Source: Nitrosomonas communis
GTDB taxonomy: Bacteria; Pseudomonadota; Gammaproteobacteria; Burkholderiales; Nitrosomonadaceae
DNA: 64,000 nt
Assembly (NCBI RefSeq): GCF_001007935.1
Contig: NZ_CP011451.1
Coordinates: 3,596,001-3,660,000 of the forward strand
Direction: 5' to 3'
Shown here: positions 5,255 to 48,476 of the stretch, piece by piece
How the letters are laid out: every line of letters starts with the position of its first letter
How positions within the stretch are numbered: position 1 is the first letter of the stretch
The notes under the pieces: model-generated
Told to the model about the DNA's origin: nothing
Database searches by the model: none
What the model saw: only the letters and a program-made list of their open reading frames with translations
Program-made: the position numbers and the translations under genes

Positions 5255-6505
5255 CTAGCCCATTCTTGCTATCATTGCATTTCCAAATCCAGAGCATGTG
5301 GCTTCAGTTGCGTCATGCATTTGTCTCGCAAAATCATAAGTTACCATTTTATCTTGGATAGTTTTTTCCATCGCTTTAATAATCATATCTGCAGCTTCAT
5401 TCCAGCCGATATGTCTTAGCATCATTTCAGCTGAAAGAATAATTGATCCAGGGTTGACCTGATCCTTACCCGCATATTTAGGGGCAGTTCCATGCGTAGC
5501 CTCAAAGATCGCAACCGAATCACTTAGGTTTGCTCCTGGGGCAATGCCAATTCCCCCTACTTGTGCGGCTAAAGCATCTGAAATGTAATCACCATTTAAA
5601 TTTAAAGTCGCAATCACATCATATTCATCAGGGCGCAATAAAATTTGCTGCAGGAAAGCATCGGCGATAACGTCTTTCACCACGATTCCTCCCTTATCCT
5701 CAGGTAATTTCATCCACGGCCCGCCATTTAACAATTCAGCACCGAATTCCTTCATGGCCACGTTATAGCCCCAATTCTTGAAAGCCCCTTCGGTAAATTT
5801 CATAATGTTACCCTTATGCACCAAAGTTACCGATTTTCGCTCATTATCGATCGCGTATTGTATTGCCTTCCGTACTAACCGTTCAGTTCCCTCTCTTGAG
5901 ACAGGCTTGATACCAATACCAGAAGATTGAGGAAAACGAATACTCTTTACTTGCATTTCTTTAATCAAAAAATCGATCACTTTCTTTGCAGATGCTGATT
6001 CTGCTTCCCATTCTATTCCCGCATAAATATCTTCTGAATTTTCACGAAAAATGACCATATCGACTTTCTCAGGATTTTTTACCGGACTAGGTACACCCTC
6101 GAAATAACGAACAGGACGCAAGCAAATATATAAATCAAGCAACTGGCGTAATGCTACATTAATAGAGCGGATACCGCCGCTTACAGGCGTTGTCAAAGGT
6201 CCTTTGATAGAAACAACATATTCTCTCGCAGCCTGTAATGTTTCATCAGGTAACCAAATATTCTCACCATATAACTTGGTTGATTTCTCGCCAGCATACA
6301 TCTCCATCCAGAAAATTTTGCGCTTATCGCCATATACCTTATACACTGCGGCATCCACAACTTTTATCATTACAGGCGTAATATCAATTCCTATCCCATC
6401 TCCCTCAATAAATGGAATAATTGGGTAATCTGGCACAGTCAGCGAGAGATCGCTATTGACAAGGATTTTTTCGCCATCAGGAGGCGCTTTGATATGCTGA
6501 AACAT
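5255..6505 (-). CDS. icd: Isocitrate dehydrogenase (NADP-dependent)
   Basis: TCA-cycle enzyme that oxidises isocitrate to 2-oxoglutarate, cytosolic. At 416 residues it matches the E. coli-type Icd. It shows the substrate-binding segment [26 protein letters not shown], the phosphorylatable-serine region just before it, [16 protein letters not shown], and the cofactor motif [11 protein letters not shown]. It supplies 2-oxoglutarate for the sucAB enzyme encoded later in the window, although the two loci are far apart. The start ATG at 6505 sits next to an AT-rich upstream region. Confidence 0.96.
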
Positions 6506-6609
6506 AAAATCTCCAGTAAAATAATAGTTTATAGAATATATTTTAATTTAATCTTGAATAATTGAATAAATCTATATCAACAAATATTGATTTAATTGCT
6601 ATTGACTAT

Positions 6610-7119
6610 TCATTCAATTGCTATCTGACCAGTCGTGCTAACCCGTAATATCATTTTGTCCCTGGACTGAATAACTTCAACTCTACGCAAGAAATTCTGC
6701 CCAAGCAGACCCACTTTTCCCTCCATACCTATGCCTACACTTAATCCCTTTACCAAAATACCACCTACCTTGATATCTTGTTCAGATACAATTTCACCCA
6801 GGAATTTACCGCTAGCGCTTGAAAAACTTGCTAGCCTACCATTTGGCAATTTTGCAGCACGTGCTAACTCATAGCTTATAGAAACGATACTTGCCCCGGT
6901 ATCAACCATAAAATCAACAGGGTATCCATTGAGTTCCCCCCGAACATAATAATGCCCATCCCATGATCTGGGAATCACAACCTCATTGCCTACCAGGCTA
7001 TCTGGGATAATAGCAATTTTGGGTTTTTGCCAATTCTCAAAAAATAAATAGGCAGCACTAAAAACGATTAACCAGATAATTAAAGCGGTAACATAACCCC
7101 ATGGAATATAACTGCGCAT
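6610..7119 (-). CDS. Membrane-anchored retropepsin-like aspartic protease (clan AA, TIGR02281-type)
   Basis: The 169-residue protein begins with one transmembrane segment (about residues 7-27, YVTALIIWLIVFSAAYLFF), followed by a single-domain pepsin fold. The catalytic motif is VDTGASIVSIS in the middle of the protein. The C-terminal GLLGQNFLRR is typical of the family, where the active enzyme is expected to be a dimer. Bacterial relatives are predicted periplasmic proteases of unknown substrate. It stands upstream of icd on the same strand with a 104-bp gap. Function beyond the fold is inference. Confidence 0.8.
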   Translation of the reverse strand: MRSYIPWGYVTALIIWLIVFSAAYLFFENWQKPKIAIIPDSLVGNEVVIPRSWDGHYYVRGELNGYPVDFMVDTGASIVSISYELARAAKLPNGRLASFSSASGKFLGEIVSEQDIKVGGILVKGLSVGIGMEGKVGLLGQNFLRRVEVIQSRDKMILRVSTTGQIAIE

Positions 7120-7448
7120 TGTAAAATTATCTATTTCTTAGATGGAGGGATATAGCTCAGTCAAACAAAAAAATGGTAGAAAATCGTGTAGAAATTAAAT
7201 ACACCCATATTGTTAACTGGTATTTTATGGTTTCATTGATCAGAAATATTACATTTTAAATCAAATTTATTACTTTCTATTTAATTAAGCATTTGTCTTA
7301 TCCGTTCTACTCTTGATTGTCATGATAAATGAATGGGCTAAATGATATGATTCAGGAGAATACGGATGGGTAATTAGTAAGCAACCTTTTATTGCTTGCT
7401 GAAAAATACGCTAAAATGTAGCTTTTGAACTTTTATCGGGAGCCTTTA
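7120..7448. other. Divergent intergenic region upstream of the protease gene and ilvE
   Basis: About 330 bases with no credible ORF. It should contain the promoters of the two divergent genes. I see no operator, riboswitch or leader-peptide pattern. The ribosome site CGGGAG (7437-7442) just before ATG 7449 decides the ilvE start. Confidence 0.4.
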
Positions 7449-8369
7449 ATGTCAATGGCAGACCGCGATGGAGTAATCTGGTTCGATGGAAAAATGGTTC
7501 CTTGGCGAGATGCTACCACGCATGTACTTACTCACACTCTACATTATGGAATGGGCGTATTCGAAGGTCTACGTGCTTATCAAACAAGCAAGGGACCGGC
7601 CATTTTCCGTTTAGTTGAGCATACTGACCGCCTGTTTAATTCAGCGCATATCTTCAGAATGACTATTCCTTTTGATAAAGCCACACTGATGCAGGCGCAA
7701 AAGGAAGTAGTGAAACAGAACCATCTTGAATCTGGTTATATTCGCCCTATCGTCTTTTACGGCGCAGAAGCAATGGGATTATCTGCCAAAAATCTATCCG
7801 TCCATGTCGCAATTGCAGCTTGGCCATGGGGAACTTATTTAGGGCCAGATAGTTTAGAAAATGGTATTCGTGTTAAAACCTCCTCCTTTTGCCGTCATCA
7901 TGTCAATATTAATATGTGTCGTGCAAAATCAGTCGCAACCTACACCAATTCTATCTTGGCGCACCAGGAAGTTGCGATGGATGGCTATCATGAGGCATTA
8001 CTTCTTGATGTAGATGGGTATATTGCTGAGGGTTCGGGAGAAAATATTTTTATCATCAAACAGGGAAAGCTTTATACACCTGATTTGACCTCTTGCCTTG
8101 AAGGCATTACACGCAATTCAGTGATCGAGCTGGCACAAGAAATGAATATTCCTGTAATCGAAAAACGCATTACCAGAGATGAGGTTTATTGCGCAGATGA
8201 AGCTTTCTTTACAGGGACCGCAGCAGAAGTTACCCCAATTAGAGAGCTTGATAATCGTACCATTGGGAATGGCAAGCGCGGTCCAATTACTCAGCAGCTA
8301 CAAGCTTTGTTTTTCGATTGTGTCAGTGGTAAAGCAACCCATCATACCGACTGGCTACACTATATTTAA
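7449..8369 (+). CDS. ilvE: Branched-chain amino-acid aminotransferase
   Basis: Class IV PLP aminotransferase carrying out the last step of leucine, isoleucine and valine synthesis. The start is taken as ATG 7449 (MSMADRDGVIWFDG) because a GGGAG site precedes it; the in-frame ATG 8 codons upstream lacks one. Recognisable motifs are THTLHYGMGVFEGLRAY, the PLP lysine region in SVATYTNSILAHQEV, and the class IV signature EGSGENIFIIKQGKLYTP followed by EGITRNSVIELA. Length is about 306 residues, as expected. The next gene starts 21 bases downstream, suggesting an operon. Confidence 0.95.
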   Translation: MSMADRDGVIWFDGKMVPWRDATTHVLTHTLHYGMGVFEGLRAYQTSKGPAIFRLVEHTDRLFNSAHIFRMTIPFDKATLMQAQKEVVKQNHLESGYIRPIVFYGAEAMGLSAKNLSVHVAIAAWPWGTYLGPDSLENGIRVKTSSFCRHHVNINMCRAKSVATYTNSILAHQEVAMDGYHEALLLDVDGYIAEGSGENIFIIKQGKLYTPDLTSCLEGITRNSVIELAQEMNIPVIEKRITRDEVYCADEAFFTGTAAEVTPIRELDNRTIGNGKRGPITQQLQALFFDCVSGKATHHTDWLHYI

Positions 8370-9070: not shown

Positions 9071-9741
9071 TCAGATTAATAAAGAAGTTAAATGAGCTAA
9101 AATGGTAAGAATGCTCCATTTGCAACGAGATATTGCTTTCAATTGATCGTTGACTGTTACAATGAGCGCGTGTTTACGCAATGAAAGTATATCAAACAGC
9201 GGCAACAGCTTGTTTTCATGTTCTCGGTGACGAGCTGTACGCCCGGTTGCCATAGTTGCTCAAAGAGCGCTTGGGGGAGGTAGCTCCCGGTCATTAAAAA
9301 ATTTCCCAAATAAGGCGCGTGATAGCTTCAGCTCCGCATCACAGCCATCAGCCTTGCTTGCCATTATATTCATTCCCCGCAGTGCTTCTTGCTCATTGAG
9401 GGCTAAGTGTAGTTTGAACTCATGAACCCAACCCACACTGACCTTCCGCTGGTCAACAAACTCTACTATCGCGTTATGCGATTGGATACAGCGATGGTGA
9501 AATATAATGTGTTTATTCCATTTCTAGATCAAAACTGACTTTGTCGGCTTCGCCTTGCGTATTATTGATAGTGTTTGCGGCTCGCCTTCGCGTCATGTTT
9601 GATTTAGAAATGAAATTAGACACAACTCTTGTCGCTGCTGAAGTTACTTGAGCGGTAACTCTCCACCAAGCGCTGCTTCCACCGCGGATCAAATCCTTTA
9701 CAAAAGTCGTCAATCGCACAAAAACTCGCTATAGTATCCAT
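9071..9741 (-). pseudogene. IS982-family transposase, fragmented relic
   Basis: Reading the minus strand, an ATG at 9741 opens an IS982-like N-terminus (MDTIASFCAIDDFCKGFDPRW) that stops after 41 codons at the edge of a repeat element (9513-9618). Beyond the repeat the C-terminal half resumes: RKVSVGWVHEFKLHLALNEQ, LFGKFFNDREL, then in a second frame ALFEQLWQPGVQLVTENMK, then in a third frame NKLLPLFDILSLRKHALIVT plus VNDQLK. These are the ordered conserved blocks of IS982 transposases. About 100 central residues are missing and at least two frameshifts are present, so it cannot be active. Confidence 0.8.
9513..9618 (+). repeat. MITE-like element family 1, copy 1
   Basis: A 106-bp element with terminal inverted repeats related to TTATTCCATTTCCAAATCAA and an interior containing TTTGTCGGCTTCGCCTTGC and CGGCTCGCCTTCGCGTCA. 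It lies inside the IS982 transposase relic. The left and right ends here have diverged somewhat (CATTTCTAGATC and GATTTAGAAATG). It has no coding capacity. Other copies are at 15126, 19418, 38427 and 47657. Confidence 0.88.
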
Positions 9742-15085: not shown

Positions 15086-15125
15086 AATTCTTGCCGTAAA
15101 TTATCATGCCCTCAGCAAAGGATAG

Positions 15126-15230
15126 TAATTCCATTTCCAAATCAAAACTGATTTTGACGGCTTCACCTTGCTGTATTGTTTATACTGTTGCGACTCGCCT
15201 TCGCGTCATTTTTGATTTGGAAATGGAGTA
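15126..15230 (+). repeat. MITE-like element family 1, copy 2
   Basis: A 105-bp copy in the same orientation as copy 1, with well-kept ends (ATTCCATTTCCAAATCAAAA on the left, TTTTGATTTGGAAATGGAGT on the right). It lies between the mac permease gene and the ISNCY-type insertion sequence. Confidence 0.88.
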
Positions 15231-15280
15231 ACCTACAATTCAGTGGCTGAGAAAACCAGGGGATCAGGGACAACTAATTA

Positions 15281-17379: not shown

Positions 17380-17764
17380 TTTCTTTATCTCCTATATAAA
17401 CAAATATGATGAATTAATTATATTTAAATATACAACACATCTTTGGTCATTCATATCTAGAATGACGCTATTCTTAATAACAGAATTATAATGTACTGTC
17501 CAGTAAATTAAATAATAATCTATTGAACATCGAGTATTATAAAGCATATTACAGCAGTTTATTCTTATAATACCCTAAGTAAAAACAGCGAGATAGATAA
17601 AATAAATCCAAGTATGACTATTCAGGTTTTACTATAAGAAGATCTGACCTACTTGTTATTACTATTTTACTGATTCTCCTGCTTCGGCTCTACAGAGTTT
17701 ACTTTGTTCAATCTTAATAACTCATCAGAAATTACCATACAGACTTTATCCTAAAATAAAAAGT
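17380..17764. other. AT-rich intergenic region, nothing identified
   Basis: About 385 bases between the small lipoprotein gene and the EI24-type gene. It should include the lipoprotein promoter and the 3' end of the EI24 transcript. There are many stops in all frames and no repeat or hairpin that I trust. Confidence 0.3.
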
Positions 17765-19049: not shown

Positions 19050-19754
19050 TTTAAATGCAGTCGTTATTTGATGGAATATTTCTCCAACAAAATTAAAATT
19101 ATAGGTGGATATTCTTGTATTACAAAAAATGATCAGAAATTACATTGGGTTGTATCACTTGTTTCAGCTTTAATTTTGCTTCACTAAAATATCATTAGAA
19201 CCAAGTTATTCGATGACGTTAATAGAATCAATTATTAGCTTATACTAGGCATCATGCCTATAGAAGCGATAGAAATCACTCCTACTGAAGAATAAATAGG
19301 TTATCTGGAGAAAATGGTATAAAACCATAGCGCCAGGCGCAGGTAGATTAAGAAAGAATCATTTTAGCCTGTGCTACAGGCAAACAGAATAGAGCAATTA
19401 CTGCAGAATGTGACTCCTTATTCCATTTCCAAATCAAAAATGACGCGAAGGCGAGCCGCAGACAGTATAAAAGTAATACGGCAAGGCGAAGCCGACAAAG
19501 TCAGTTTTGATTTTTTAGAAATGGAATTAGAATGGCGTGTCAGAAATAGCACGTAGCCAAAGCACGCTATTGCCAGACTTGAGAATGAGCGGTAACCCTG
19601 GCCAACCTGAAATATATGGTAAGCGTTTGGGCATAGACTGTTATCCAAACTGAAATAATCTACTTCTTTCGCCACAATCATCGAAAAAAATCACTTCACC
19701 GCATCAGCCCTCTTGAGCAATTTGTTATTTGCTTAAATATGTCAAAGCAAAGAT
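19050..19754. other. Intergenic region holding a MITE-like element
   Basis: About 700 bases between flgM and pstB (convergent ends). The only recognised content is the family 1 repeat at 19418-19529. The rest contains short open frames without family resemblance and no credible ribosome sites. Confidence 0.4.
19418..19529 (-). repeat. MITE-like element family 1, copy 3 (inverted)
   Basis: A 112-bp copy in the opposite orientation to copies 1 and 2: after the left end TTATTCCATTTCCAAATCAA come TGACGCGAAGGCGAGCCGC, an AT-rich centre and GGCAAGGCGAAGCCGACAAA. The right terminal repeat has a small change (TTTTTTAGAAATGGAATTA). It lies between flgM and pstB. Confidence 0.88.
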
Positions 19755-38397: not shown

Positions 38398-38426
38398 GAT
38401 CTTCAATTTTGATTGCAAGAGTCACC

Positions 38427-38532
38427 TTATTCCATTTCCAAATCAAATATAACGCGAGGCGAGCGGCAGACAGTATCAATCATAAGGCCAGGTGAAACCG
38501 GCAAAGTCAGTTTTGATTTATAAATGGAATAA
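38427..38532 (-). repeat. MITE-like element family 1, copy 4 (inverted)
   Basis: A 106-bp copy in the same orientation as copy 3, with ends TTATTCCATTTCCAAATCAA and TTGATTTATAAATGGAATAA. It fills the gap between radA (ends 38541) and the ceramidase-like gene (starts 38397), so it probably reshapes transcription between them. Confidence 0.88.
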
Positions 38533-43372: not shown

Positions 43373-44131
43373 TTATTTCTTCTTTAATACCAACAGTATG
43401 TCATCCAGCCCATACCGTACTACTTCTAGTCGATCATTGCATTGAGAAACGTAATCCCCGCTTATGAGGGGAAGCTGGAATGGAAAGAATGCTGGGTTAT
43501 TTAACAACAAGCCCAGTGCCACCTTGCCTTCTGAGGTGGCATGAAGTGCGGACTCAAACATCAGAATGGCTAGATCAGGATCAGCAACACTGATTGGCGC
43601 TGATTTCTCATAACAACCTTTGTTCTCAGCGTCCTTAAGTATTCCCCAAGCTACAAAGGAGCGCACGGTGTAACGTGCATTTCTAGCAACCGTTTCTCTA
43701 TCCCCATATTGTTCCTTGATGCGTCCAAACACCTGAACCTGGGTTATCTGATCTTGAAGATTAAAAAGTCTTCCTGCCTGTTTAGCGATATTAAACCAGA
43801 AAGGGTATGAAGCAGATATTATTATCCAGTGAAGCGGGAGCCACTCCTCAGTTGATAAACTTCTTGCAAACATTAGTGCTTCATCACGAAATGGAACTAA
43901 ATCAGAATCGGGAGCAAACCAGGAAGTCAAAATACCGATTGCCATTCCGTAGGTTTTTTCGCCTCTCTGACCTGTACCACCACTTTGCTTTTGCGTTTTT
44001 AGAAATTCATCCAATTCCGCTCGTATTTCTTTTTCGGACATCCCGGCCAGCATCATCTGAACAGTACGATCCATCCAGTATTTTTGAATCGTCTGTTTGA
44101 CACCTAATTTCTCATGCCTTTTTCTCATCAC
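43373..44131 (-). CDS. BREX-associated protein in the brxA position
   Basis: A 252-residue protein with no enzymatic motif I recognise; mainly helical, soluble, with a basic N-terminus (MMRKRHEKLGVKQTIQKYWM). It overlaps the end of pglZ by four bases (44128-44131), so it is translationally coupled. In type 3 BREX loci the gene after pglZ is brxA, and the position fits; sequence likeness to the DUF1819/BrxA family is not obvious to me, so this is a context call. A domain search would decide. Confidence 0.5.
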   Translation of the reverse strand: MMRKRHEKLGVKQTIQKYWMDRTVQMMLAGMSEKEIRAELDEFLKTQKQSGGTGQRGEKTYGMAIGILTSWFAPDSDLVPFRDEALMFARSLSTEEWLPLHWIIISASYPFWFNIAKQAGRLFNLQDQITQVQVFGRIKEQYGDRETVARNARYTVRSFVAWGILKDAENKGCYEKSAPISVADPDLAILMFESALHATSEGKVALGLLLNNPAFFPFQLPLISGDYVSQCNDRLEVVRYGLDDILLVLKKK

Positions 44132-46203
44132 CGTGTCCTCCTTTCAAACTTCACCAGGGGCACGATGACTTCTTCAATAGCGATACCGCCATGCCCTACC
44201 ATGGCCTCTCCAGGATGCACGAAGGCATCGCGTCCACCCGTCACCAGGGGAAAATAATCTGCTGGCAATCCGACCGGCTGCCACTCATGGGCAAATGGGA
44301 AGATTCCTGCGACCTGAGAACGGAGTTCCGGCGTGGGATACACACGAACCCGCTCACCGCGAGTTTCGGCAATCACACCTTCAGATGGGCGGCCTTTGCC
44401 ATTGCATTCGATGTTACCATGATCGGATGTCAGCCAGACCTCATACCCATAGTCCAGCAGGTAACCGACCAGCGCCGCAAGAAATCCACCTTGGCACCAT
44501 TGCTTGATCTGATTGTGCATCCCAGCCGAGCCGAGTTGCATGCCATGCATGATCTTGTCGATCTTGTCCACAACAAGTCCTACTACTTTGGTTTTGCCGG
44601 GATGGATTACGGAGTCGAGCACGCTGGATGAATTACCGTCGCCAAGACCACGCTGGTAGGCGACATCCAGCCGGGACAGGCCATGACCTTCCCAGAACTG
44701 TTTCCAGAGTTTCTCTTCGCTGTTGGTCGAGTTGATGGATGACGGGAAATAGAGCGGCGGTTTGCCCGAAAAAATTGATTGCCGCGATACTGAGGTCAGC
44801 GTCGGGATCCAGGCGAAAGTCGCGAATTCGCGCATGACCAGATTGGCATCCTGCTTCTGCAAAAGTTGGCGGATAGTCACCCACTGGTCCAGGGCAAGGC
44901 CGTCTACCACGATCAGGCCCACACGATTGTCCCTCAACTCCTCTACATCCCGAGCCAAGCGGCGGGGCACATGGTGCACCATAGCCGGATTTGTCGGCGG
45001 CAAGTTGATCAGACTGGAATAGTGTTCGGCCAACCAATCGGCAAAAATCGTATTCAAGATATCACCGACTCCTTTTAACCGGTTCTGATGCACGGTGCTG
45101 TTGCCGCAATGAACCAGTGAAGAAAGCTCGGCCCATTTCAGCGCAAAGGCAGTCCAGTCAGAGTAGCGCGCTTCTGCTGTCGGCAGCTCCTTTTCGACAA
45201 GGTCAAGCAGGCGGGAGATACGAAGCTCTTCATCATCCACACCGACCATGGCAATGCCGCTTCGCACCCAGGACCCAGCATCCACCTCCATGCCAGTGGC
45301 CTCGACAGGTATAAGTTTTCCCTCCAGGAACAAGTTGTCGACGTAAACCTTAATATCATGATGATCAAACGGCAAGAGATTAGGCCCTAAATACTTGAGA
45401 CCATATTGAGGCTGACGCCCATCATGCATCGTTCGCACTGGCTGGGTACTGCTTTGCGGTACCCAAATCTGCTGCCCTACTGATTTGTTAGGTGAATCTT
45501 CTATGAGCTGATCAATCTTTCTTAAGCTATTCAGGAAAAGAGGCCACCGCTCCTGCAGAAAGGCAAAAAATGCCTTCTCATTAGGAATAATTTCTTCCAA
45601 GGGCCAAACCTTGAATCCACCATGGCTTATGAGAACCTGAACGAACCGATGAGCCAGCATGAGCGGGATCTGAAGTTTCCCATAATGCAAACGAAGCAAA
45701 ACCCGCAGCAGCTCCACCTCGTTAGCGATCAGCTCGGCGGCGATGCCGAACACATGGCGGAGAATGAAGTCCTTGGTGGCATTGTCGCCCATACGATCCG
45801 GCGGCGACTTGCGCTGTGCCTCAAAGAGCGCATCGAGCAGGCTCCGGTCGAGCTTCTCGATGACCGGGTAGCTCAGGTTAGGAAAGAGATCCCCCAGATT
45901 GAAGGAGAGCTTGCGTCCTGCCTGGAGCAGGTCGTAAGGCAAGGATTCCAGCTCGGTATCCTGCAAATGGAGGATCACCGCCAGATCGGTGTGCTCGCCT
46001 CGGTCAGAGATTGAGCGGTATTGGGACTCATAGGCGTATCTAAATTCGATCGGGTCATTGAACTCGATCAGGTCGAATCCGCGTCCGCGAAGCTCCAACG
46101 CTAGTTTCTCCTCAGTCAACAGACCGTCAGGGTCTGCAACTAGAGTGAGTTTGCTGACGTTGGGTACAAACTCGTTCAGGATGGCGTCTCGCCAACTACT
46201 CAT
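44128..46203 (-). CDS. pglZ: BREX-3 phosphatase PglZ
   Basis: PglZ is the signature protein of BREX phage defence, of the alkaline-phosphatase superfamily. Start ATG 46203 (MSSWRDAILNEFVPNVSKLT) is preferred because AGGAAGC precedes it. The open frame extends 11 codons further, but that start has no ribosome site. About 691 residues. Phosphatase-type elements include VGLIVVDGLALDQW, the long middle around RQSIFSGKPPLYFPSS, and the late EVWLTSDHGNIECNG metal-binding segment. By eye it is GC-richer than its neighbours, in keeping with acquisition by transfer. Upstream partners are deleted (see findings), so the system cannot work as BREX. Confidence 0.85.
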   Translation of the reverse strand: MSSWRDAILNEFVPNVSKLTLVADPDGLLTEEKLALELRGRGFDLIEFNDPIEFRYAYESQYRSISDRGEHTDLAVILHLQDTELESLPYDLLQAGRKLSFNLGDLFPNLSYPVIEKLDRSLLDALFEAQRKSPPDRMGDNATKDFILRHVFGIAAELIANEVELLRVLLRLHYGKLQIPLMLAHRFVQVLISHGGFKVWPLEEIIPNEKAFFAFLQERWPLFLNSLRKIDQLIEDSPNKSVGQQIWVPQSSTQPVRTMHDGRQPQYGLKYLGPNLLPFDHHDIKVYVDNLFLEGKLIPVEATGMEVDAGSWVRSGIAMVGVDDEELRISRLLDLVEKELPTAEARYSDWTAFALKWAELSSLVHCGNSTVHQNRLKGVGDILNTIFADWLAEHYSSLINLPPTNPAMVHHVPRRLARDVEELRDNRVGLIVVDGLALDQWVTIRQLLQKQDANLVMREFATFAWIPTLTSVSRQSIFSGKPPLYFPSSINSTNSEEKLWKQFWEGHGLSRLDVAYQRGLGDGNSSSVLDSVIHPGKTKVVGLVVDKIDKIMHGMQLGSAGMHNQIKQWCQGGFLAALVGYLLDYGYEVWLTSDHGNIECNGKGRPSEGVIAETRGERVRVYPTPELRSQVAGIFPFAHEWQPVGLPADYFPLVTGGRDAFVHPGEAMVGHGGIAIEEVIVPLVKFERRTR

Positions 46204-46322
46204 TAAGCGCTTCCTGGTTGAACCACGAATAAACACGAACGGATATCACCTGAAATCACCCTGGTTAAGGCATGGATCTGGTGCGGCAAAGGGATGACAT
46301 TGGATTCCACAAAACTCAGCAT
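46203..46322 (-). pseudogene. Scar of a BrxHII-type helicase gene
   Basis: A 39-codon frame ends in a TAA that overlaps the pglZ ATG. Its middle, VIPLPHQIHALTRVISGDIR, resembles the segment just before Walker A in BrxHII-type SNF2/DEAH helicases, where PxPHQ...AL..a.sGd..R is followed by LLADEVGLGKT. Here the ATP-binding motif is missing and the frame ends after 11 more codons. The position directly before pglZ is where brxHII stands in BREX-3 loci. I infer that nearly all of the helicase gene was deleted. Confidence 0.5.
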
Positions 46323-46459
46323 ACCTCAAGCCAAGAAGTTTTTTCCGAAGCGAATGCTTTATGGACACGCTCTCAGCAATCGGGAATTGGTTGATGTGGT
46401 TCCCTGTAACTGGACAACCTGAAAGAAAGTTCAGCTCTGATATGTATAGTTAAACAGGT

Positions 46460-47287
46460 TCAGGCAACCCGATCAATTCTTGGATCACTATAGTAGATTT
46501 CATCAGGCGTAAGACGGTCAAGGCTTTGATGAAATCGTTCTTGATTGTACCATTCAAACCATGTGGATAAATTCTGCTTTATCTCCTTCAGATTATTGAA
46601 TTCTCTGGTATATAAAAGCTCATACTTAACTGTCCGCCAAAGTCGTTCAACAAAAATGTTGTCATAGTAGCACCCCTTGCCATCCATGCTGATCTGAATA
46701 TGATGATCTTTTAGTATGGAGGTAAATGCTTCGCTGGTAAACTGTACGCCCTGGTCGGTATTCATGATCTGTGGACAGCCATAATCCTGGATGGCTGCCT
46801 CCAGCGCCTGAGTACAAAAGTCAGTATCCAAGGTATTGGACAAGCGCCAGCTCAACACCTTACGCGAATGCCAGTCGATGATGGCAACCAGATAGCCAAA
46901 GCCTTTCTCCATGGGGACATAGGTTATGTCGGCAGCCCAAACCTGATTGGGTTTATTAATGACAAGTTCTCTAAGCAGATAAGGATAGACCTTATGCTGT
47001 TTGCTTGAGATGCTGGTCCTGGGTTTTGGAGCTATGCTGACAATACCGAGTGTCTTCATTAAGGAAGAGGCTTTCTTGCGCCCTAACATGATTCCCTGGC
47101 GCTGAAACCAGGTAGCATAACTGCGTGAGCCATATTGTGGCGTCTTTAAGTACTGTTCATCCATCATGCGCAGCAGAACCAGATCAGCATTACTGATTGG
47201 TTGCGGTTGATAATAATAAGTTGAGCGCGCCAGATCCAGCAGCTGACATTGACGAGTTTGACTAAGTTTGCCATGGGGCTCAATCAT
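46460..47287 (-). CDS. IS3-family transposase, orfB
   Basis: The catalytic rve (integrase) half, 275 residues. The DDE triad is visible in NQVWAADITYVPMEKG, IMNTDQGVQFTS and FVERLWRTVKYE. The helix-turn-helix-like RSTYYYQPQP segment leads in. It is intact and in the usual order after orfA (20-base gap). A programmed frameshift linking the two frames is typical of IS3, but I could not define the slippery site. Confidence 0.95.
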   Translation of the reverse strand: MIEPHGKLSQTRQCQLLDLARSTYYYQPQPISNADLVLLRMMDEQYLKTPQYGSRSYATWFQRQGIMLGRKKASSLMKTLGIVSIAPKPRTSISSKQHKVYPYLLRELVINKPNQVWAADITYVPMEKGFGYLVAIIDWHSRKVLSWRLSNTLDTDFCTQALEAAIQDYGCPQIMNTDQGVQFTSEAFTSILKDHHIQISMDGKGCYYDNIFVERLWRTVKYELLYTREFNNLKEIKQNLSTWFEWYNQERFHQSLDRLTPDEIYYSDPRIDRVA

Positions 47288-47307
47288 CTCTTTGCGTTCT
47301 ACAAGAC

Positions 47308-47589
47308 TTAATGATTGAGCTTTCTTGCTAAAAAATCGCGTTCTACCGCCAATTGACCAATAACCCGGTGCAGGTCATCTGTTGTAGGCTGCTCCTTATT
47401 GGCGGCAGTATTATTTTTACAAAACAGCTCGGCAGCTTGCTCAATGAGTTGCCGTTTCCAGCTATTGATCTGCGTGGGATGTACATTATAACGCGCTGCT
47501 AATTGGGGGACAGTTTCATCACCACGTATCGCTGCCAGCGCTAGTTTTGCTTTGAATTCGCTCGAATATTGTATGCGCTTTTTACTCAT
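47308..47589 (-). CDS. IS3-family transposase, orfA
   Basis: The 93-residue DNA-binding protein starts MSKKRIQYSSEFKAKLALAA, with a helix-turn-helix (VPQLAARYNVHPTQINSWKRQL) and a leucine-rich coiled coil at the C-terminus (VIGQLAVERDFLARKL). Preceded by AAGGAG. Confidence 0.94.
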   Translation of the reverse strand: MSKKRIQYSSEFKAKLALAAIRGDETVPQLAARYNVHPTQINSWKRQLIEQAAELFCKNNTAANKEQPTTDDLHRVIGQLAVERDFLARKLNH

Positions 47590-47656
47590 TGTTATTAAGC
47601 TCCTTTTTAATTCTGCCAGAGCTTAACAACCTGTACAGTTTTTGGGTACCACTTCA

Positions 47657-47741
47657 GAATTTGTCGGCTTCACCTTGCCGTATTATTTTTATACTGTCTG
47701 CGACTCGCCTTCGTGTCACTTTTGATTTGGAAATGGAATAA
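47657..47741 (+). repeat. MITE-like element family 1, copy 5 (truncated by the IS3 element)
   Basis: 85 bp remain: the left about 21 bases are missing where the IS3 right end sits, but the rest is well kept (TTTGTCGGCTTCACCTTGCC ... CGACTCGCCTTCGTGTCA, right end TTTTGATTTGGAAATGGAAT). Same orientation as copies 1 and 2. Confidence 0.88.
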
Positions 47742-47744
47742 CGA

Positions 47745-47985
47745 GGGGCTAGGGGAAAGTTTGTTCATAAAGCTATTGATCATTTTGCTGGCTTCCATCT
47801 GCAAGTTCAGGATTGATAAGAGTTGTTCTTCAAAAAGGTAACCAAAACGTTGGGCAATAAAGATTTGCGTTTCGATTTCGGTCAAAGACTCCCTTGCAAT
47901 GAAAAAAGAGCGTTAAAATCAGCCGTTGAGATTTTTGCATGGCCTGTTGCCAAACAATTAAATTCTTGTAGCTGTTAATTTTCAT
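47745..47985 (-). pseudogene. Four-helix-bundle (S23-type) protein, broken
   Basis: The minus strand from ATG 47985 reads MKINSYKNLIVWQQAMQKSQ, the usual start of the S23/four-helix-bundle family. After a shift of frame and a missing centre of about 50-60 residues it continues SLTEIETQIFIAQRFGYLFE and ILNLQMEASKMINSFMNKL, the family end. The ATG overlaps the brxF stop (ATGA). Such proteins are often found in or near defence and rRNA loci with unknown function. A family 1 repeat lies at its 3' end. Confidence 0.75.
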
Positions 47986-48476
47986 AGCTCGCCCCTCACT
48001 CCTCGATCCTCCTTCCTAATCTCAACGATCAATGCATCGACCGAGTCATAGCTACGGTACTCGGGATGACCGGTTTCTGCATACAAAAGCCTCCCGGAGA
48101 TTATGTTTCCGTTCCATGAAGCCACAATGGCCTGATTTCTCGAAATGCTCTGCAGCAACCGCAAAGGGTCTTGCTTGAGGTCTTTGTCGAAAAGGATCTC
48201 TAGATTATCCAGCACCACCGGTGTCTGAGCTTTATCTACGATTTGGTTGAGAATTCCAGGCAATCGTAGTGATCGCTGCTTCACAGTCAGCTCAAGCAAT
48301 TCAATGGAAAGCGCCTGATTAATATTGATGACAAATACCCCGAACTCCTCGGCAACATTCTGCAGAACGCTAGTCTTGCCGGAACCGGTTTCGCCTACGA
48401 GTAATACCAAACGGTAATATAAGCCTTCGGCTGCTCGCAGGGATCGTATTATCTTGTCGGGAATTGGTTCGGCCAT
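47982..48476 (-). CDS. brxF: BREX-3 P-loop protein BrxF
   Basis: The 164-residue ATPase has Walker A GETGSGKTSVL near residue 30 and Walker B-like VVLDNLEILFD near 95. Size, the N-terminal IRSLRAAEGLYYRLVLLVGE context and the NPxxLLQ-like region DPLRLLQSISRNQAIVASW are those of BrxF, the first gene of type 3 BREX loci. The frame looks intact. brxC, normally next, is absent; a broken four-helix-bundle gene, a repeat and an IS3 element follow instead. Confidence 0.78.
   Translation of the reverse strand: MAEPIPDKIIRSLRAAEGLYYRLVLLVGETGSGKTSVLQNVAEEFGVFVININQALSIELLELTVKQRSLRLPGILNQIVDKAQTPVVLDNLEILFDKDLKQDPLRLLQSISRNQAIVASWNGNIISGRLLYAETGHPEYRSYDSVDALIVEIRKEDRGVRGEL

Follow-up and report, generated by a model that had tools for sequence, protein, structure and literature searches.

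Probable stepwise decay of a type 3 BREX locus in Nitrosomonas communis

Type 3 BREX and the remnant in the window

Type 3 bacteriophage exclusion (BREX) systems consist of BrxF, BrxC, PglXI/BrxXI, BrxHII, PglZ and BrxA, and the locus analysed here, in a stretch of 64,000 nucleotides of the Nitrosomonas communis chromosome (the window; NZ_CP011451.1, positions 3,596,001 to 3,660,000), keeps three of these six core proteins. The locus is clearly the decay of a known system and not a new kind of system, and very probably it is a type 3 BREX that had lost its BrxHII helicase, still mattered in that state, and was killed at the end of a stepwise decay by a recent deletion linked to an insertion sequence (IS). 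A 2026 survey reports BrxHII from 702 taxa, or 77% of type 3 systems; it also names PIN, Schlafen and OLD-linked nucleases as backup effectors in BREX loci and describes type 1 PglZ as a metal-dependent nuclease (PMC12839542). For the type 1 system of E. coli, deletion of brxX, brxB, brxC or brxZ is reported to abolish both protection and modification, while deletion of brxA is without effect (PMC6326788). No paper on BREX decay in Nitrosomonas was found in the literature, as judged by title or abstract. A study of Acinetobacter baumannii reportedly deals with IS-mediated loss of defensive mechanisms, so that this kind of event is already known.

The window resembles type 3 BREX in its order brxF ... 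pglZ-brxA and in the overlap of the pglZ and brxA frames, and differs from it in the absence of brxC and pglX, in the reduction of brxHII to a scrap, and in the IS3 element, four-helix-bundle gene remnant and repeat that occupy the gap. Read along the minus strand from 48476 to 43373 the features are the following, the PIN gene end and the brxHII scrap together lying in a gene scar between IS3 and pglZ:

47982..48476, minus strand: brxF, 164 amino acids (aa), type 3 BREX P-loop protein
47670..47985, minus strand: broken four-helix-bundle gene of the 23S rRNA intervening-sequence protein family; its ATG overlaps the brxF stop and its frame changes
47657..47741, minus strand: cut dispersed repeat, 85 bp left of about 108 bp, with inverted ends, resembling a miniature inverted-repeat transposable element (MITE); cut by IS3
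46392..47656, minus strand: IS3-family element, 1265 bp, flanked by TTC and ACC with no 3-bp duplication
46359..46391, minus strand: 3' end of an accessory PIN-domain nuclease gene, the last 10 codons (TNSRLLRACP, then stop), adjoining IS3
46245..46334, minus strand: brxHII scrap, profile positions 76-106 (31 positions), matching roughly codons 91-113 of the brxHII gene (965 aa) in the related stretch L118
44128..46203, minus strand: pglZ, 691 aa, type 3, open and conserved
43373..44128, minus strand: brxA, 251 aa from an ATG that overlaps the pglZ stop

An initial annotation, made from the letters of the window, had called this a wrecked type 3 BREX locus, and type-specific profiles bear it out for BrxF (NF033453 BREX_3_BrxF, score 197 bits, threshold 50, covering positions 2-149 of the 149-position profile) and PglZ (NF033449 BREX_PglZ_3, score 897 bits, threshold 250; 1078 bits with PADLOC). 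The coupled gene that it placed in the brxA position matches PADLOC BrxA (PDLC02444, 311 bits, residues 2-252 of 252) and has no match in Pfam or NCBIfam; the start assigned to it, a GTG at 44131, gives way to the likelier ATG at 44128. Near-invariant residues are retained, PglZ deviating at one of 116 such columns (A429G; 69 homologs) and BrxA at none of 24 (73 homologs), and the Walker A motif of BrxF (GETGSGKTS) is present. The C-terminal tail seen in BrxF of four relatives is replaced by EIRKEDRGVRGEL at the join with the four-helix-bundle gene. The latter, which had been described as broken, opens with MKINSYKNLIVWQQAMQKS at 47985 and then continues in another frame, where a fragment (47885-47670) aligns to TIGR02436 positions 66-108 at 22.1 bits, just below the cut-off of 24. 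In four relatives the gap between the profile matches of brxF and brxC is only about 45 bp, too short for such a gene.

Profile and genome searches for brxF, brxC, pglX and brxHII covered six genomes: that of the window, complete in a single contig of 4,067,838 bases; N. communis Nm44 (G010; stretches L084 and L117), a draft of about 200 contigs; N. communis isolate mag.23 (G011; stretches L034, which is contig JAGFJM010000111, L118 and L139), a metagenome-assembled genome (MAG) labelled N. communis; Nitrosomonas sp. OFTM113 (G059; L043); and G087 and G091. Neither brxC (BrxC/PglY ATPase) nor pglX (PglXI/BrxXI methyltransferase) gave a single match in the complete genome of the window, so that the loss of both stands as annotated, and both are present in G011, G059, G087 and G091, pglX with full matches and the brxC of G011 as two pieces on two contigs. 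PglZ and BrxF each have one match in the genome of the window, and its seven other matches to the BrxHII family are partial and lie in different, longer frames of 475-1406 aa; with brxC and pglX unmatched and brxHII a scrap, no complete BREX set was thus found elsewhere in the genome.

Early loss of the helicase gene

The scar had been read as a helicase remnant of 39 codons. Its frame, counted stop to stop, is about 40 codons, only about 23 of which (VESNVIPLPHQIHALTRVISGDI) are brxHII, and the scar also takes in the end of the PIN gene next to IS3; from IS3 the order is PIN gene end, about 50 bases, the brxHII codons and the pglZ leader. The corresponding stretch of Nm44 has an open PIN gene of 205 aa (whole in L117 and recognized by Pfam PIN, with a homolog in L118) and then agrees with the window in the spacer (2 differences), in the brxHII scrap and in the transition to pglZ; no IS3 match was seen in this stretch of Nm44. 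Because both edges of the scrap are common to the two strains, brxHII was lost before the window and Nm44 split, unless the stretch was transferred later.

This bears on the proposal of the initial annotation that a single IS3-linked deletion took brxC, pglX and brxHII together. All three are indeed absent between brxF and pglZ, with IS3 in the gap, but the end of the PIN gene separates the brxHII scrap from the element, and the scrap is enclosed at both edges by sequence without a difference from Nm44, whose PIN gene is open and in whose stretch no IS3 match was seen. A single deletion is contradicted by Nm44 unless the stretch passed between strains after the event; it is regarded as highly improbable, and the brxHII part of the proposal gives way to an older loss.

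Nm44 is itself a remnant at the same site, as judged by its DUF498 flank, and shares the brxHII scrap, pglZ and brxA with the window. It differs from the window in retaining the PIN gene, in lacking brxF and in having a truncated porin gene where the window has IS3. Its pglZ is broken by the loss of one base at position 45541 and by a stop codon at 44706 (window coordinates), and its contig ends within brxA. The Nm44 draft gave no match for brxF or brxC and, for pglX, only one weak match of 42 positions on another contig. Synonymous divergence (dS) between window and Nm44 is 0.227 in pglZ and 0.127 in brxA; four flanking genes have values of 0.21-0.34.

The run identical between window and Nm44 is 159 bp long (46178-46336) and spans the brxHII scrap and the start of pglZ. 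No other identical run in the stretch is as long (p 0.0039 by permutation, post hoc), and in 5,249 aligned flanking bases the maximum is 92; the position of the 159-bp run over a supposedly dead brxHII scrap is left without explanation. A conserved leader or RNA in the scar was considered and rejected: substitutions are unevenly spread, and the RNA fold predicted for 46180-46391 does not stand out (z -0.52). A search of 46150-46700 for promoter- or terminator-like sites gave none, and there is no match in the plasmid collection.

Continued selection on pglZ

Codon changes in pglZ were polarised with G011, G087 and G091 as outgroups, under a strict and a loose rule. On the window branch 6 nonsynonymous changes stand against 24 synonymous ones under the strict rule, which leaves 68 of the 139 differing codons unpolarised; under the loose rule the counts are 10 and 27, with 50 codons unpolarised. 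In Nm44 pglZ a block of about 320 bp (L117 about 17412-17732, window 44580-44900) is far more divergent than its surroundings, is also further from the three outgroups, and holds the stop; it was perhaps imported by recombination. The possibility that this block biases the codon counts was rejected on a recount without it, in which the strict rule gives 4 and 17 changes, a nonsynonymous to synonymous rate ratio (omega) of 0.075 (confidence interval 0.018-0.229) and p 7e-8 against neutrality, and the loose rule 8 and 20 with an omega of 0.127; the purifying result stands. The Nm44 branch carries 15 and 29 changes, or 6 and 10 without the block (omega 0.19). The analysis shows that pglZ has been under purifying selection on the window branch since the split from Nm44, and that it was preserved through most of the period after the helicase loss.

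Loss of the core genes at IS3

The element at 46392-47656, annotated as IS3, matches NF033516 (267 bits against a cut-off of 160, over 46463-47287) and has a DDE transposase in two frames and inverted ends TGAAGTGGTACCC and GGGAACCACATCA. Its two sides are halves of two unrelated sequences, the repeat, which had correctly been noted as truncated, and the PIN gene end. Since the remainder of the repeat is absent on the far side and the PIN gene end stands there instead, a deletion or recombination ended at IS3, in agreement with the initial placing of the element at a deletion junction. By estimate from G011 the lost stretch is about 10.5 kb and held brxC, a Schlafen-like gene, a ParA-like gene, pglX, a HATPase gene, a small gene and most of the PIN gene. 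An inversion that left the PIN gene elsewhere in the genome was rejected, as the PIN protein of L117 has no match elsewhere in the genome of the window.

Twenty IS3 copies (that of the window and 19 others) were fetched out of 44 matches, many of these partial, and a 3-bp target duplication is present in 10 of the 20, two of them with the same flanks, and absent from the window copy. Among the nine other fetched copies that have no duplication, none has TTC at its right flank or ACC at its left flank, as a reciprocal product would (20 of the 44 matches being fetched); one copy (L003) is flanked by TTC left and right, which is its own target duplication. It may be asked whether brxC and pglX had already gone when IS3 entered a dead locus as a later insertion with no part in the deletion. 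That half of the fetched copies have no target duplication, whatever the reason, and that the nearby four-helix-bundle gene is itself broken would both suit such an insertion; a plain insertion, however, would leave the other 20 bp or so of the repeat beyond IS3, and the PIN gene is found there instead, which makes this sequence of events unlikely.

The age of the junction may be judged from the element itself. Compared with the 19 other fetched copies, the window copy is identical to 8 over the 1265 bp and differs by one base from 9, the remaining 2 being 1266 bp long. Among IS3 matches of at least 500 bases, the best in Nm44 has 90% identity and the best in G080, another Nitrosomonas genome, 96%, both genomes being drafts, in which repeated elements often break; on these values the identical set in the genome of the window probably spread after the strains split. 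With no difference in 1265 bp from eight copies, the insertion would fall well after the split from Nm44, unless gene conversion masks its age.

The preferred reading is thus of three steps. Nearly all of brxHII was lost before the window and Nm44 split, as shown by the shared junctions; selection on pglZ continued, and on the evidence of its codons the helicase-less system, or some part of it, presumably still worked; and brxC, pglX and most of the PIN gene were then lost across the present IS3 copy, where the junction is plain and the mechanism may have been recombination between two IS3 copies or an IS-adjacent deletion. The identity of the IS3 copies suggests that this third step was recent. 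With pglZ preserved over the greater part of the period after the helicase loss, and with the identity of the IS3 copies, the natural reading makes the loss of the core the latest of these events and a recent one.

State of the remnant

By analogy with type 1 systems, a remnant of BrxF, PglZ and BrxA that has lost its methyltransferase and central ATPase is expected neither to modify DNA nor to restrict phage as BREX does. All three frames would remain open mainly because there has been little time for them to decay, so that recency accounts for them more than any residual role; some leftover PglZ activity is conceivable, type 1 PglZ being a nuclease, although the present evidence does not call for it. 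Where the initial annotation had left a choice between recent loss and a retained role, the identity of the IS3 copies, the codon evolution and the near-invariant residues that are still in place speak for a recent loss of the core that followed a longer helicase-less phase under selection.

A reduced BrxF-PglZ-BrxA module, with a PglZ nuclease or phosphodiesterase, a DNA-binding BrxA and a P-loop BrxF, might still be useful without BrxC and PglX and be kept open by selection. The purifying selection on pglZ along the window branch and the near-invariant residues retained in PglZ and BrxA are what such a module would display, and the long run shared with Nm44 over the scrap and the start of pglZ would fit a kept leader, on a p value obtained post hoc. 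Against this, the identity of the IS3 copies places the loss of the core so late that most of the codon signal must predate it; the lost base and stop in Nm44 pglZ mean that the pglZ-brxA pair was not kept there; of the 46 relatives that include 10 kb upstream of pglZ, Nm44 is the only one with neither pglX nor brxHII; and in the type 1 system of E. coli, brxA, brxB, brxC or brxZ alone is reported to give no protection (PMC6326788). The reduced module is therefore considered very unlikely, and that the three proteins act at present as a small self-standing defence or regulatory module, held open by selection and not by recency, is if anything more doubtful still.

Several observations weigh against stepwise decay with a late loss of the core, or limit it. 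The pglZ branches of window and Nm44 do not differ significantly (Fisher p 0.29), and the polarised counts are small (30 and 21 changes, with 68 of 139 codons unpolarised under the strict rule). Pairwise omega between window and Nm44 is 0.167 in pglZ and 0.175 in brxA, above the 0.089-0.11 of pglZ among three fuller relatives, so that selection may have been somewhat relaxed, in Nm44 or in both. As brxA dS falls below that of the flanking genes, part of the stretch may have been transferred between strains. The missing duplication at the window IS3 is weak evidence alone, since 10 of the 20 fetched copies also have none, and gene conversion among the copies could mask an older insertion, its age being read indirectly. 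BrxF deviates at 7 of 78 columns, tail included, in a comparison where these columns are common to only 3 homologs; in G011, a MAG, a contig break within brxC divides the locus in two; and the argument on function is carried from type 1 to type 3 by analogy.

The events at this locus amount to the ordered death of a type 3 BREX, in which the helicase went first, a phase of selection on pglZ followed, and the core was lost at the IS. The selected helicase-less phase, which is the useful part of this history for BREX specialists, suggests that type 3 BREX can matter without BrxHII, in agreement with loci in which BrxHII is not found. The remnant is also a warning that calls of intact pglZ and brxF do not imply a working system.

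Related loci and the chromosomal site

The gene content of related loci was surveyed by BLAST, by which divergent helicases could be missed, in 79 fetched relatives, 46 of which include 10 kb upstream of pglZ. Among these 46, pglX is present at 30% coverage or more in 43, and brxHII falls below 50% coverage in 7, of which 6 have pglX. Five type 3 loci (L043 of G059, L053, L065, L069 and L070) have no full BrxHII match, brxHII being unmatched or a scrap while pglZ stays, and brxA coverage is at least 95% in four of them and 19% in L065. Unlike the window, these loci have pglX in all five cases and brxC in four (the L053 stretch starts near pglX), and four have matches to OLD-like ATPases. In G059 brxF, brxC, pglX, pglZ and brxA are kept, and a brxHII scrap of 44 positions is accompanied, in place of the helicase gene, by an OLD/AriA-like ATPase gene and a gene of 349 aa.

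The BREX remnant lies between a DUF498/Mth938 gene and an ABC-exporter gene, and this site was compared in 61 Nitrosomonas genomes, a sample that excludes Nm44. The DUF498 gene is found in 57 of the 61 and an ABC-exporter match (E 1e-60) in 52, while a close ortholog of the latter (at least 68% identity) occurs in only four, that of the window included (G000, G080, G076 and G011), the rest having 30-37%. The intact locus that the initial annotation had proposed to look for at this site in relatives is found in G011 as a full gene set on two contigs, DUF498-brxF-brxC on C23 and brxC-...-pglX-...-PIN-brxHII-pglZ-brxA-ABC gene on C80, adjacency across the break within brxC being the probable arrangement. 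Its brxF, pglZ and brxA have about 81-83% DNA identity to those of the window in the aligned parts; unlike the window it has brxC, pglX, the PIN gene and brxHII, with Schlafen-like, ParA-like and HATPase genes inserted. Between pglX and brxHII, L118 has a block (5906-7692) made up of the HATPase-like gene, a small gene of about 118 aa and the PIN-like gene; the PIN-like gene occurs in three of the 79 loci, L034 (the same locus as L118), L039 and L084.

Other strains have other genes at the site. G080 is 97-98% identical to the window around it and has different genes after DUF498, which we take to be kdp-like, and G076 has three other genes in the interval. A PglZ match is found in 9 of 125 genomes of the family, and neither G076 nor G080 is among the nine. 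As the contents of G011, G076 and G080 differ, the site takes different cargo from strain to strain. The three genes of G076 (L142, 2362-7745) are co-directed and encode 1039, 343 and 412 aa, the first with HerA/mad8-like similarity, and they are perhaps another defence cargo.

The repeat that IS3 cuts is dispersed more widely. Five copies of this sequence of about 105-108 bp are present in the window (9513-9616, 15125-15232, 19414-19527, 38425-38532 and the cut copy at 47657-47741), a first look at the whole genome gave 331 candidates, of which 40 were scored and gave 40 places, and a further copy follows brxA in L118.

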